A stretch of 64,000 nucleotides of DNA from Lancefieldella sp. Marseille-Q7238 (GTDB lineage Bacteria > Actinomycetota > Coriobacteriia > Coriobacteriales > Atopobiaceae): NCBI RefSeq assembly GCF_949152215.1, contig NZ_OX424407.1:248001-312000 (forward strand), in the 5' to 3' direction. Position numbers and translations under genes: made by a program. Shown here piece by piece: positions 15,394-19,299 of the stretch. The number at the start of each line of letters is the position of its first letter. Position 1 is the stretch's first letter. The notes under the pieces are model-generated. The model made no database searches. It saw only the letters and a list, made by a program, of their open reading frames with translations, and had not been told where the DNA came from.

Positions 15394-16143
15394 CTAGAGA
15401 ACCGCTATGCCAATAATAAACATGAGGCCGACAACAAGTATGACGTCATCAGATATACGCATTGGATAGCGCTTGAGCGCGGAATCCCGCGTGCGCAGAT
15501 AAAACCCACGCTGTTCGGCTGAGAGCGCTGTAGCGTCAGCTTTTTTCACCGAAGAAATCATCAGCGGAACAATAAGCGGGAGTTGCAGTTTCAGGCGGCG
15601 AAAAGGATTTTTTGCGTCAAACTCCACGCCGCGCGCCGTCTGGGCCTCCTTGATTTTCTCCATTTCCTGCGAAAAAACAGGGACGAAACGAATAGCGGTA
15701 GTGATGGTAAACGCGTATCGATACGGAATATGGAGCACTTCGACGCAGGCGCTCGTCAGGTCCTCCATGCGGGTAAGGCTCATCATCGAAAGGAGCGGCA
15801 GCGCCAACGCGATGGTGCGCAGCGCAACATTTGTCGCCTGAGCAAGACCATAGTCGGTGACAATGTAGAACACCGGCGTGCCCGAACGCGCAATGAGCGC
15901 CTGAACGACAAACATGCAAGCGCCTATAACAAAAAACGCTCCCAAGAGCCGAAACGCCTTTTTGGCATTGCCTGCCACGATATTGATAAGCAGCGTGGCT
16001 GCGATAACAGCAATAATCTCAGGGTAGCCGGGAGCTACAATGCCCGCCGTGAAAAGCTCGATGGCGAGAAAGACCTTAGCAACCGGATTTGCGCGATGCA
16101 AAAAGCTCGTGCCTTCCGTGTAATCAATAATGCTACCTGACAT
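15394..16143 (-). CDS. ECF transporter transmembrane (T) component
   Basis: 249 residues with about five to six membrane segments. It couples the ATPases to the substrate-binding S protein. The coupling-helix motif of EcfT/CbiQ proteins is visible as ARGVEF (Ala-Arg-Gly) in KEAQTARGVEFDAKNPF, and a second at SAEQRGFYLR. Start at 16143 because GGAGGT lies 7 bases upstream; it overlaps the ATPase stop by 11 bases. Last gene of the attenuator-controlled S-AA-T operon; obgE follows after 75 bases. Confidence 0.88.
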   Translation of the reverse strand: MSGSIIDYTEGTSFLHRANPVAKVFLAIELFTAGIVAPGYPEIIAVIAATLLINIVAGNAKKAFRLLGAFFVIGACMFVVQALIARSGTPVFYIVTDYGLAQATNVALRTIALALPLLSMMSLTRMEDLTSACVEVLHIPYRYAFTITTAIRFVPVFSQEMEKIKEAQTARGVEFDAKNPFRRLKLQLPLIVPLMISSVKKADATALSAEQRGFYLRTRDSALKRYPMRISDDVILVVGLMFIIGIAVL

Positions 16144-18070
16144 CTGAGACCTCCGAACCGCCGCGGCCTTTGGTGGTATTGCGATGGCGATGATGTTCTT
16201 CAACGGCTTCTCTGACAAATTTCTCGGCCGCCGCGCGAGAGGTGGCGTCGCTCACAATACGCTCAGTCATCCGACCAATCTCAGACACTGTTGTCAGTCC
16301 TGTATAGGCGGCGTCAACGCGCTCCGAGAGCACGCGCGCAATCTGTACCACCTGAGGCGGTTCAATAGCGGCGAGGCGCATAACAGCATTTTGTGCAAAA
16401 ACTTCAGCCAGAGGACCATCAGCGATGAGGGAACCGTGCGCCATAACTGCCGCGCGACTCGCAAAGTCAGAAACGACCTCCATGTCATGGCAGGCCATCA
16501 AAACGGCGCAGCCCTTCTCGCGCAGCTTTTCAACCTCGTGCATGACGGTCATGCACTCACGATAGTCAAGGCCGCTTGTCGGCTCATCGAGCACAAGCAC
16601 GTCAGGCTCGCACACGACCACGGACGCCAAGGCTACCATTTGGCACTGACCGCGAGAAAGCGTAAACGGAGAAGCCTGAGCGTCAAGTCCAAAGCCGTCG
16701 ATAACGTCTTTCGCCCGCTCATGCGCTTCTGATTGCGGTACTCCTTTGAGCTCCAGTCCAAAAGCGACCTCATCGAGAACCGTGTCTTTGCAGATTTGGT
16801 GGTCGGGATTTTGAAAGAGCGTGCTGACATGGTGGGCAATCTCGCTGGTGCGCTGAGAAACAGTGGATGTTCCCATAATGCGAACATCACCGCTTTGCGG
16901 CTTCAATAAGCCGTTGACCAGCTTGGTAATGGTTGTCTTTCCAGCGCCGTTTTGACCGATAAGCGCCACAATCTCACCGGGATTTACGGAAAAGGTCACA
17001 TGGTCAACGCCGTCATTGCTGCTCTCATAGCGAAACGAAACGTCAAGCAGCTCAAGCGATGGCTCAACTTCCTCTCCCTCCGGCTGAGACAGAACCTTTT
17101 TGAATGGACCGCTGTCAGCAGCCGTCACAGGACCACCGATGAGCGGCAAATACGTTGGAGAAAGAGACGCGTCTTTAGAGGTGAGCGGAGTCTGCACGTC
17201 GTAGGAGACCCCCCTGCTCTTCCCCACCGCGCGCGCGACAAGGCCGCAGGCGTCTTGGACTGTCAGCGAAACGTCTTTCTCGCCCGCATAGCCAAGTTTA
17301 CGCAGGTAATTGGAAATGCGTGTAGCCCGAGGACTGTCAACGCCAAGTTCGCGCAAGGCCGCTGAGCGCGCAAAGACTTCGCTTGTGGAGCCGCAGGCGG
17401 CAATGGCGCCGTCTGCCAGTACGAGGACGCGTGAGCAATATGTGGCGAGAAGGGCGACCTTTTGCTCCACGACAATGACCGTGATGCGCTCAGTGCGATT
17501 GAGCTCGGCGAGCGTTTCAAAAATGGTGCGTGAAGAGACGGGGTCAAGGGCGGCGGTCGGCTCGTCAAGGACCATCACGCGCGGACGCAGCGCCAGCATG
17601 GCGGCAAGGGCGACCTTTTGCTTTTGGCCGCCGGAAAGCGTCGCAATTTCGCGGTAGCGCAGATCGGATATACCAACGGTATCCAAAGCGTACGTCAAAC
17701 GATCCATAATCTGCTCGCGGGGAACATCAAAATTTTCAAGCCCGAAGAGAAGTTCATCCTCTACAATGCCGGCAACCATCTGCGCGTCAATATCCTGAAG
17801 AATGAGGCCGATTGAACAAGAGATGTCGGTCAGGGTAACGTCACAGGTATCCTGCCCGTCAACCAACACCGCTCCATACAGCGTGCCGCGGTAGTGGTGC
17901 GGAATCGCGCCGGACATAAGCGAGGTGAGCGTCGTTTTTCCTGCCCCCGAAGGCCCTACGATACCGAGAAACTCTCCTTCGCTGAGCTGGAAGTGTATGC
18001 CTGAAAGCGCGGGCGTTTTGCTGTCGGGATAGCTAAACGTCACATGTTGAAAATCAAGTACGGAGTGCAT
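16133..18070 (-). CDS. ECF transporter ATPase, two ABC domains in one chain
   Basis: 645 residues holding both ATPase domains of an ECF transporter. Domain 1: Walker A GPSGAGKTT, signature LSGGQKQK, Walker B VMVLDEPTAALD. Domain 2 (from about residue 340): Walker A GQNGAGKTT, signature LSRGQ (variant of LSGGQ), Walker B VLVLDEPTSGLD. Start at 18070; the frame continues to 18118 but the ATG at 18070 follows GGCGAGAAG, the only SD-like purine stretch. A C-terminal extension of about 90 residues follows domain 2. The 128 bases between it and the S gene may hold an internal promoter. Confidence 0.9.
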   Translation of the reverse strand: MHSVLDFQHVTFSYPDSKTPALSGIHFQLSEGEFLGIVGPSGAGKTTLTSLMSGAIPHHYRGTLYGAVLVDGQDTCDVTLTDISCSIGLILQDIDAQMVAGIVEDELLFGLENFDVPREQIMDRLTYALDTVGISDLRYREIATLSGGQKQKVALAAMLALRPRVMVLDEPTAALDPVSSRTIFETLAELNRTERITVIVVEQKVALLATYCSRVLVLADGAIAACGSTSEVFARSAALRELGVDSPRATRISNYLRKLGYAGEKDVSLTVQDACGLVARAVGKSRGVSYDVQTPLTSKDASLSPTYLPLIGGPVTAADSGPFKKVLSQPEGEEVEPSLELLDVSFRYESSNDGVDHVTFSVNPGEIVALIGQNGAGKTTITKLVNGLLKPQSGDVRIMGTSTVSQRTSEIAHHVSTLFQNPDHQICKDTVLDEVAFGLELKGVPQSEAHERAKDVIDGFGLDAQASPFTLSRGQCQMVALASVVVCEPDVLVLDEPTSGLDYRECMTVMHEVEKLREKGCAVLMACHDMEVVSDFASRAAVMAHGSLIADGPLAEVFAQNAVMRLAAIEPPQVVQIARVLSERVDAAYTGLTTVSEIGRMTERIVSDATSRAAAEKFVREAVEEHHRHRNTTKGRGGSEVSDVR

Positions 18071-18198
18071 GTTCTTCTCGCCATTCATAGCTACGATTGA
18101 AGTTTGATGTAACGGCATATACGAGTGTATACAAGAAACGTCCGCTGTTCAGCAAAAATCGTCAAAAGAACACCGAAAGGCGGCCTTTTTGAAGCGGA

Positions 18199-18783
18199 TC
18201 AGCGGCGTGTCGCTTTGGACAGAGGTTCCGCAAGCGCCTGCACCACGATAGCGTTGAAAAGCGCCGTGCACAAAATGACGGGAATCATGACGAGAAAGAG
18301 GTCAAGACCGGCATGTTTAGCGGGAACGGCAATCGCGGCAAAAATCAGACCGGAAACGGCAGTCGTTACAAAGGATCCTACAAAGGGCATAATTCTGCTC
18401 TCGGCGAAGGCGCTTTTGGTAAAGGCAAACATCACGAGCGCGGCAATTGATTCCGCGACCAAATCGGCTCCAGGAAGCGAGGTGGTGATTTGAATGACCG
18501 CGCCGGCGATAAGGCCGATAATAACCGATTGCACCGCGTTCGGCTTGAGCAAAAGGATCGCTAGGCAAAATGAGGCGATAACAAACTCCGGGGCAATGCC
18601 CACCGCGCTGATTGCCTTGCCGACGGTCAAATCAAGAATGAGACCGGCGGCAATGAGTACCGCCACTGTTACCAGCGATGTTACATCAAGGGCCCCCTGT
18701 CGACTTGATTGAACCGCAATACGCGGCTGTTTGAGGTCTTGGCTGTTCAAGTTCTGGCTGCGATGAGACTTTTGGACTGTCAT
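18199..18783 (-). CDS. ECF transporter substrate-binding (S) component, predicted tryptophan or related
   Basis: 194 residues, five to six membrane helices after a polar N-terminal tail of about 40 residues. The helix pattern and small residues (LTVGKAISAVGIAPEFVIASFCLAILLLKPN) are ECF-S-like. No sequence motif names the substrate. The leader upstream (18893-19060) encodes three consecutive Trp codons before a terminator, so tryptophan or a precursor is the best prediction. Start at 18783 has AAGGAA 8 bases upstream (a GTG at 18798 is possible). Confidence 0.75.
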   Translation of the reverse strand: MTVQKSHRSQNLNSQDLKQPRIAVQSSRQGALDVTSLVTVAVLIAAGLILDLTVGKAISAVGIAPEFVIASFCLAILLLKPNAVQSVIIGLIAGAVIQITTSLPGADLVAESIAALVMFAFTKSAFAESRIMPFVGSFVTTAVSGLIFAAIAVPAKHAGLDLFLVMIPVILCTALFNAIVVQALAEPLSKATRR

Positions 18784-18892: not shown

Positions 18893-18922
18893 AAAAAAAG
18901 CCCCCGGTCTTTCCGGGAGCCC
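18893..18922 (-). terminator. Attenuator terminator before the ECF S gene
   Basis: On the minus strand GGCTCCCGG-AAAGA-CCGGGGGC runs into seven T (18893-18899). It lies 34 bases beyond the leader-peptide stop and 110 bases before the S-component start. GAGGG at the base of its 5' arm can pair with CCCTC, which comes shortly after the Trp codons, giving a plausible alternative antiterminator pairing. It is well separated from the rpmA terminator at 19273-19299. Confidence 0.8.
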
Positions 18923-18955
18923 TCACATATGCCAAACAGCATGAGTGACTCACAG

Positions 18956-19060
18956 TCAACCGAAGAGGGACAGAGTACGCCACCACCAGTTTTTACGGGA
19001 TGCGGTTGCAGTGGAGTTTGTCGCTGAAGCGCAGCTTATTGCTGCTGGATTAGAGCTCAT
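18956..19060 (-). CDS. Trp-rich leader peptide (transcription attenuator)
   Basis: 34-codon open frame with a good ribosome site (GGAAGGGAG about 7 bases before the ATG at 19060). Codons 25-27 are three consecutive TGG (Trp); the peptide ends SRKNWWWRTLSLFG. It is followed by a strong terminator hairpin and then the ECF S gene. Adjacent Trp codons in a short translated leader ahead of a terminator is the classic architecture of the trp attenuator: ribosome stalling at low charged tRNA-Trp would favour read-through. The peptide itself is probably not functional after synthesis. Confidence 0.8.
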   Translation of the reverse strand: MSSNPAAISCASATNSTATASRKNWWWRTLSLFG

Positions 19061-19272
19061 AGATAGTCTCCCTTCCTCTACAACAAGGCTGACACGGCTA
19101 AAACAGTGTCGGCAACTCAAACACACGATTACAACCTGTGAGCAAGGATACCAATTCCTCTTCACGGAGTTTTCAAAAAAGGAATCATGAAACAGCTTTG
19201 AAACGTTGAAGCGTTCGAAGATGTGAGCTATGAAGCGTTTAAGGGCGCTAACACTACAAGCATCCCTATGCC

Positions 19273-19299
19273 AAAAAAGGGACCCCGAAGGGTCCCTTT
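19273..19299 (-). terminator. Terminator of rplU-rpmA
   Basis: Perfect 10-base stem AAAGGGACCC (19276-19285) with its complement at 19290-19299 and a four-base loop, followed on the minus strand by a T-run. It lies 34 bases after the rpmA stop. Confidence 0.9.

Follow-up and report, generated by a model that had tools for sequence, protein, structure and literature searches.

What does a short open reading frame with three adjacent tryptophan codons do in front of an ECF transporter operon in the 1.6 Mb genome of Lancefieldella sp. Marseille-Q7238, and what does that transporter carry? We analysed the locus within a window of 64,000 nucleotides (the whole stretch of DNA under study, to which all coordinates refer). 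The original prediction read the locus as an attenuator placed on a transporter, with tryptophan or a precursor as the likely substrate, and our comparisons of sequences make it highly probable that ribosome-mediated transcription attenuation by charged tRNA-Trp controls an ECF tryptophan importer here. The features concerned are given below in the direction of transcription.

19273 to 19299, minus strand: terminator-like hairpin AAAGGGACCCTTCGGGGTCCCTTTTTT after the preceding rplU-rpmA genes (from the sequence)
19068 to 19076, minus strand: leader Shine-Dalgarno site GGAAGGGAG, 7 nt ahead of the ATG (from the sequence)
18956 to 19060, minus strand: leader peptide ORF of 34 codons, MSSNPAAISCASATNSTATASRKNWWWRTLSLFG and stop (read from the sequence; relatives keep a short ORF with WWW there)
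19060 to 19058, minus strand: leader start codon ATG (from the sequence)
18980 to 18988, minus strand: putative regulatory Trp codons UGG UGG UGG, codons 25 to 27 (from the sequence; invariant columns 1 to 9 of alignment A2, whose rows were picked and anchored on the WWW motif itself)
18958 to 18956, minus strand: leader stop codon TGA (from the sequence)
18943 to 18965, minus strand: 5' strand of the predicted antiterminator (region 2), pairing with 18924 to 18902 (duplex prediction, folding by state, alignment A2)
18896 to 18924, minus strand: intrinsic terminator hairpin with a 12-pair stem (terminator scan, covariation)
18199 to 18783, minus strand: S component of the TrpP family, divergent, 194 aa (TrpP matches in relatives, structure model)
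16133 to 18118, minus strand: fused EcfA-EcfA' ATPase, 661 aa (TIGR04520 and TIGR04521, over cut-off)
15394 to 16143, minus strand: EcfT transmembrane component, CbiQ family (PF02361, E 1.1e-26)

The predicted 34-codon frame, with its good ribosome site and three adjacent Trp codons, is borne out by the sequence and by relatives, and it is followed, again as proposed, by a terminator and then by the S gene of an ECF operon on the minus strand. Four ECF parts are encoded there in three genes, in the order S, fused A-A and T, with the ATG of EcfT overlapping the stop of the ATPase gene. The automatic call places the start of the S gene at a GTG (18798), while a Shine-Dalgarno site and the relatives favour the ATG at 18783. 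Because the terminator-like hairpin closes rplU-rpmA upstream, the leader and ECF genes probably have a promoter of their own; a search for it at the locus identified none.

Of the 54 relative loci fetched first, all except two have a short ORF with WWW ahead of their first S gene; in this set some organisms appear twice, from two collections, and 47 sequences are distinct. These loci span Lancefieldella/Atopobium, Olsenella, Collinsella, Parafannyhessea and Gardnerella, the last belonging to another family of Actinomycetota (Bifidobacteriaceae) and carrying its WWW leader at the same position. The N-termini of the leaders vary freely, whereas the WWW motif, its spacing from the stop and the final codons are maintained, so that conservation of the Trp codons, proposed at the outset as a check, is seen in almost every close relative. 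Counted from the first Trp codon, the stop lies 36 nt away in nearly all Coriobacteriia and only 30 nt away in the window, where the leader is two codons shorter, with an early TGA where relatives mostly read CGA; the usual stop position (18952 to 18950, minus strand) also reads TGA. Searched with a covariance model built on this RNA, the host genome gives a single match (E 6.7e-16), and 125 of the 248 class genomes give matches as well, weak ones among them. At the leader, Rfam gave no match at the gathering threshold and chance-level matches only at a lax one, and a search of the window leader region for the T-box motif and stem I gave no match, which places the leader outside the T-box class. 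In the two exceptional loci (L010, L014) the S gene follows rpmA directly, with a terminator present and no WWW leader, and both genomes (G169, G178) have trpA.

The terminator lies between leader and first gene, beginning about 30 nt past the leader stop codon, and its T-run extends to about 18890. It is by far the strongest site in the terminator scan (the raw number of sites, 10, is not above that in shuffles, 8.0 ± 3.1), and in relatives both sides of the stem change in 10 of 15 pairs, a level matched by none of 500 shuffles. Region 2, which overlaps the final leader codons and the stop codon, would form a duplex with the 5' arm and loop of this terminator and stands at a constant distance from the Trp codons across relatives. 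The duplex is predicted at -22.5 kcal/mol in the window (z = -2.35), and over 50 leaders the mean z against shuffled region 2 is -2.36, with 49 values below -1. Strands also fit partners of their own clade best: those of Gardnerella reach -15.0 kcal/mol with their own partners and -9.7 with those of Coriobacteriia, and those of Coriobacteriia reach -22.2 and -13.2 kcal/mol with their own and with Gardnerella partners, respectively. Within Coriobacteriia, 83% of cells in alignment A2 are paired in this register, as against at most 59% in slid registers. Covariation of the antiterminator within this class was looked for and did not exceed that in shuffles, the pairs being conserved; support for the antiterminator consequently rests on register, position and the comparison of clades.

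We also folded the leaders by ribosome state, assuming that the ribosome covers about 12 nt downstream of the A-site codon. With a stalled ribosome, the antiterminator was the lowest-energy fold in 40 of 50 early transcripts (in the other ten, mostly from Gardnerella, other folds beat it), whereas with the ribosome at the stop codon the antiterminator formed in 0 of 50 and the terminator in 50 of 50. On these assumed footprints the two structures exclude one another, the antiterminator being freed by a stall at the Trp codons and masked at the stop, and the search for exclusive folds was thus positive by duplex prediction, covariation of the terminator and state folding. In full-length RNA the terminator wins in 46 of 50 leaders even with a stalled ribosome, and therefore the switch would have to be kinetic, as attenuator switching is generally held to be. 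A further, upstream hairpin, in which the stretch directly behind WWW pairs with one beyond the stop codon, has double changes in 16 cells, a count that none of 500 shuffles reached, and may be a pause hairpin.

From these features we infer ribosome stalling and transcription switching at the window leader. When tRNA-Trp is charged, the ribosome would pass WWW, reach the stop codon and cover region 2 (18965 to 18943), whereupon the terminator (18924 to 18896) would fold and transcription would end before the S gene. When tryptophan is short, the ribosome would stall on one of the three UGG codons and leave region 2 exposed; the free strand would then base-pair with the terminator's 5' arm and loop, transcription would proceed through the S, A-A and T genes, and tryptophan would be taken up. 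An attenuation layout on a transporter, as first suggested, is a reading that leader conservation, terminator covariation and the alternative folds all favour.

The S protein was initially described as one that would otherwise be unnamed. This stands for the protein itself, which matched no family in Pfam, TrpP (PF17099) included, or in NCBIfam, and NCBIfam has no name for its relatives either; it does not stand for its kinship, which matches in relatives show to be of TrpP type. With E values up to 1 admitted, 31 of the 42 relatives aligned match TrpP (best E 1.1e-12), and the matches shown cover about positions 2 to 168 of the 169 of the profile, indicating full-length homology. Several relatives pass the curated cut-off, among them first and second S copies of WWW operons, while some WWW-linked S proteins match only below it; a relative 65% identical to the window protein scores 19 bits, and relatives about 42-47% identical pass the 27.2-bit cut-off. 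The window protein has a 98% match in Atopobium sp. oral taxon 199 and a 74% match in Lancefieldella rimae, which assign the host to Lancefieldella/Atopobium. An AlphaFold2 model (pLDDT 88.8) found as its best PDB matches RibU, FolT and ThiT, all of them ECF S components, with E-values of 0.3 and up, probability up to 0.99 and TM about 0.55; a search of PDB by sequence returned one insignificant match. The S-component fold and a gene standing beside those of EcfA, EcfA' and EcfT identify an ECF S component and, judged by its relatives, the protein is a divergent TrpP-type member missed by the Pfam model in this species.

The gene content of the host agrees with such a role. We found no trpA in the host genome or in four other genomes of the genus and detected no IGPS (trpC) in the host, whose three PALP-type hits include no TrpB. 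(The host also has a diaminopropionate ammonia-lyase gene, L147, at G000:C1:1328916-1329860.) Among 398 genomes of the class, trpA is present in 36 of 209 order-level genomes with S (17%) versus 107 of 189 others (57%), a contrast with a Fisher p of 2e-16 when kinship is ignored. These absences point to a bacterium that probably cannot make its own tryptophan.

Most of the distant S orthologues (about 33-44% identity), whose family code f2 probably stands for Eggerthellaceae, are without a WWW leader. Upstream of S orthologues at 21 loci (14 + 7; L069 to L092 except L071, L077 and L086) we found T-boxes (RF00230), which read the same tRNA charging by binding uncharged tRNA directly, without a leader peptide, and which are absent from the window operon. 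Their E-values range from 1e-9 to 1e-15 and all stand at the same place; default scans miss them because all score under the Rfam gathering cut-off. The specifier position is UGG (Trp) in 21 of 21, and 20 of 21 have GGUGGnACC with C opposite the tRNA discriminator. In model bacteria the discriminator of tRNA-Trp is G73, and the C fits this tRNA since it would pair with G73; a search for the tRNA-Trp gene in one T-box genome matched tRNA-Ala instead. A second T-box near one S operon (L076:2829-3076, plus strand) scores over the Rfam cut-off and has, by alignment, a CUC (Leu) specifier.

A tree of S proteins divides into a mainly T-box clade and a WWW clade, yet two rows inside the T-box clade (L071, L077) carry WWW leaders and one f2 genome (L068) sits inside the WWW clade, so that the tree requires three sensor changes; a tree forcing T-box rows apart from WWW rows was rejected (AU p 0.0024). 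The leader model moreover matches before genes of two other kinds, where the leaders encode WWW peptides of their own. One is an SNF-family sodium symporter (PF00209; L127 to L132), which follows the leader in five g40 genomes without a detected S gene and once beside S (G070). Its best PDB relative is 4us3, which we take to be the MhsT structure solved with Trp, and the symporter is probably an alternative Trp transporter; a search of the host genome for it found none. The other, in many Coriobacteriia, is a TrpB-like enzyme (TIGR01415 / PRK12391; L134, L136, L137, L140 and L142 to L146, with WW in place of WWW in L146), which suggests salvage of indole to tryptophan under tryptophan control. 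Taken together, these patterns make it likely that in Coriobacteriia an orthologous Trp importer swapped WWW leader and UGG T-box more than once, and that the leader RNA spread to the SNF transporter and the TrpB-like enzyme, forming a Trp-salvage regulon.

Could the arrangement in the window nevertheless be a coincidence, a short ORF standing by chance before an unrelated terminator? The motif TGGTGGTGG occurs 13 times in the genome, not above a reversed control, but the recurrence of the WWW leader across relatives argues against chance, and the peptide position, Trp codons, spacing and alternative pairing are conserved across genera and into Bifidobacteriaceae. We regard the chance reading as refuted by this conservation and its probability as negligible. 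The other TGGTGGTGG sites of the genome were translated in frame, and the leader covariance model accepts the site in the window alone in this genome. A subtler alternative, which we consider very improbable, is that the WWW peptide is translated while regulation takes another route (Rho, translational coupling or a Trp-binding regulator), with the hairpin acting as a constitutive terminator. The preference of most full-length leaders for the terminator fits it, as does the level of antiterminator covariation within the clade, which does not exceed that in shuffles. Such a route is opposed by a terminator standing about 30 nt past the stop codon, together with a conserved strand that competes for it and keeps a fixed spacing to the Trp codons, by the conservation of those codons and of the upstream hairpin, and by the recurrence of the leader RNA before other Trp-related genes.

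A larger, though still small, share of doubt concerns the cargo, for the switch might sense tryptophan while the S protein imports a related compound (indole, anthranilate, kynurenine or another indole derivative), a reading that we hold to be unlikely. What attenuation senses is the state of tRNA-Trp and not what is imported; the TrpP annotation draws on a small number of tested proteins, in many relatives the S gene is present as a tandem pair whose products might carry different compounds, and the TrpB-like enzyme that some keep under the leader RNA could in principle use indole. Yet a biosynthetic precursor would be useless to a host genome without detectable trpA, IGPS or TrpB, tryptophan being better supported than a precursor because no detectable TrpB is there to use indole, and the TrpP matches run the whole length of the protein. 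Of the two substrates originally offered, tryptophan or a precursor, it is thus tryptophan to which TrpP kinship, UGG T-boxes on orthologues, the shared leader RNA and the loss of trp genes point as the probable cargo, and we infer that the S protein binds it.

With classical trp attenuators (trpL of E. coli and those of Corynebacterium and Streptomyces) the window locus shares a short, translatable leader with two to three adjacent Trp codons, an intrinsic terminator with a T-run before the first gene, and an alternative antiterminator strand near the leader stop. It differs in that the leader would control an ECF importer and not biosynthesis, is longer, and holds the antiterminator strand largely inside its last codons; the Rfam Trp_leader model gives it 15 bits against a cut-off of 41. 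Trp attenuators in Actinobacteria are reportedly the subject of work by Korolev et al. in 2015, which PMC4833913 cites. Leader-peptide Trp attenuators have been described for the trp operons of Corynebacterium and Streptomyces, in a study whose reported Trp attenuators all belong to trp operons or trpS and which does not include Coriobacteriia (Seliverstov et al. 2005, PMC1262725). The S protein can in turn be set beside TrpP of B. subtilis (YhaG, PF17099), a tryptophan ECF S component: the S-component fold is common to both and relatives match the whole profile, whereas the window protein has diverged too far for the model to match it. In B. subtilis it is the TRAP protein, and no leader peptide, that regulates the trpP gene. 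Tryptophan has been named as ECF cargo, and B. subtilis TrpP uses a shared ECF module (PMC11487621), whereas the window S gene has its own A-A and T genes after it. An exchange of sensors between lineages is also known from histidine genes of Firmicutes, which have a T-box in some lineages and a leader-peptide attenuator in others (PMC9413887); the exchange by lineage between orthologues is common to both cases, the present one concerning Trp import genes in Coriobacteriia.

Trp attenuation of the classical type is already known, and so is the role of TrpP as an ECF S component. In the open-access literature we found no report of a Trp leader on an ECF importer or of a Trp T-box on S genes in Coriobacteriia, nor of attenuator/T-box exchange between orthologues of this class. 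As far as searchable literature shows, the pairing of Trp attenuation with a TrpP-type importer in Coriobacteriia and Gardnerella is new, as is the exchange of attenuator and T-box between orthologues. Substrates of ECF S components are hard to assign, and in the present family regulation, kinship and the loss of genes all indicate tryptophan, which can be tested directly as a prediction. The S family is present in many human-associated actinobacteria, including oral Lancefieldella, gut Collinsella and Olsenella and vaginal Gardnerella, and several of its human-associated carriers are apparent Trp auxotrophs. Orthologues paired across T-box and WWW leader also allow two means of reading one tRNA to be compared in a natural setting.

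Two variants of operon structure were seen among the relatives. Two tandem TrpP-type S genes occur per operon at L009, L011, L022, L036, L038, L041 and other loci, and at two loci (L033:5610-8066 and L034:5631-8066) the second S copy is joined to the double ATPase in an unusual S-A-A fusion of 819 and 812 aa.
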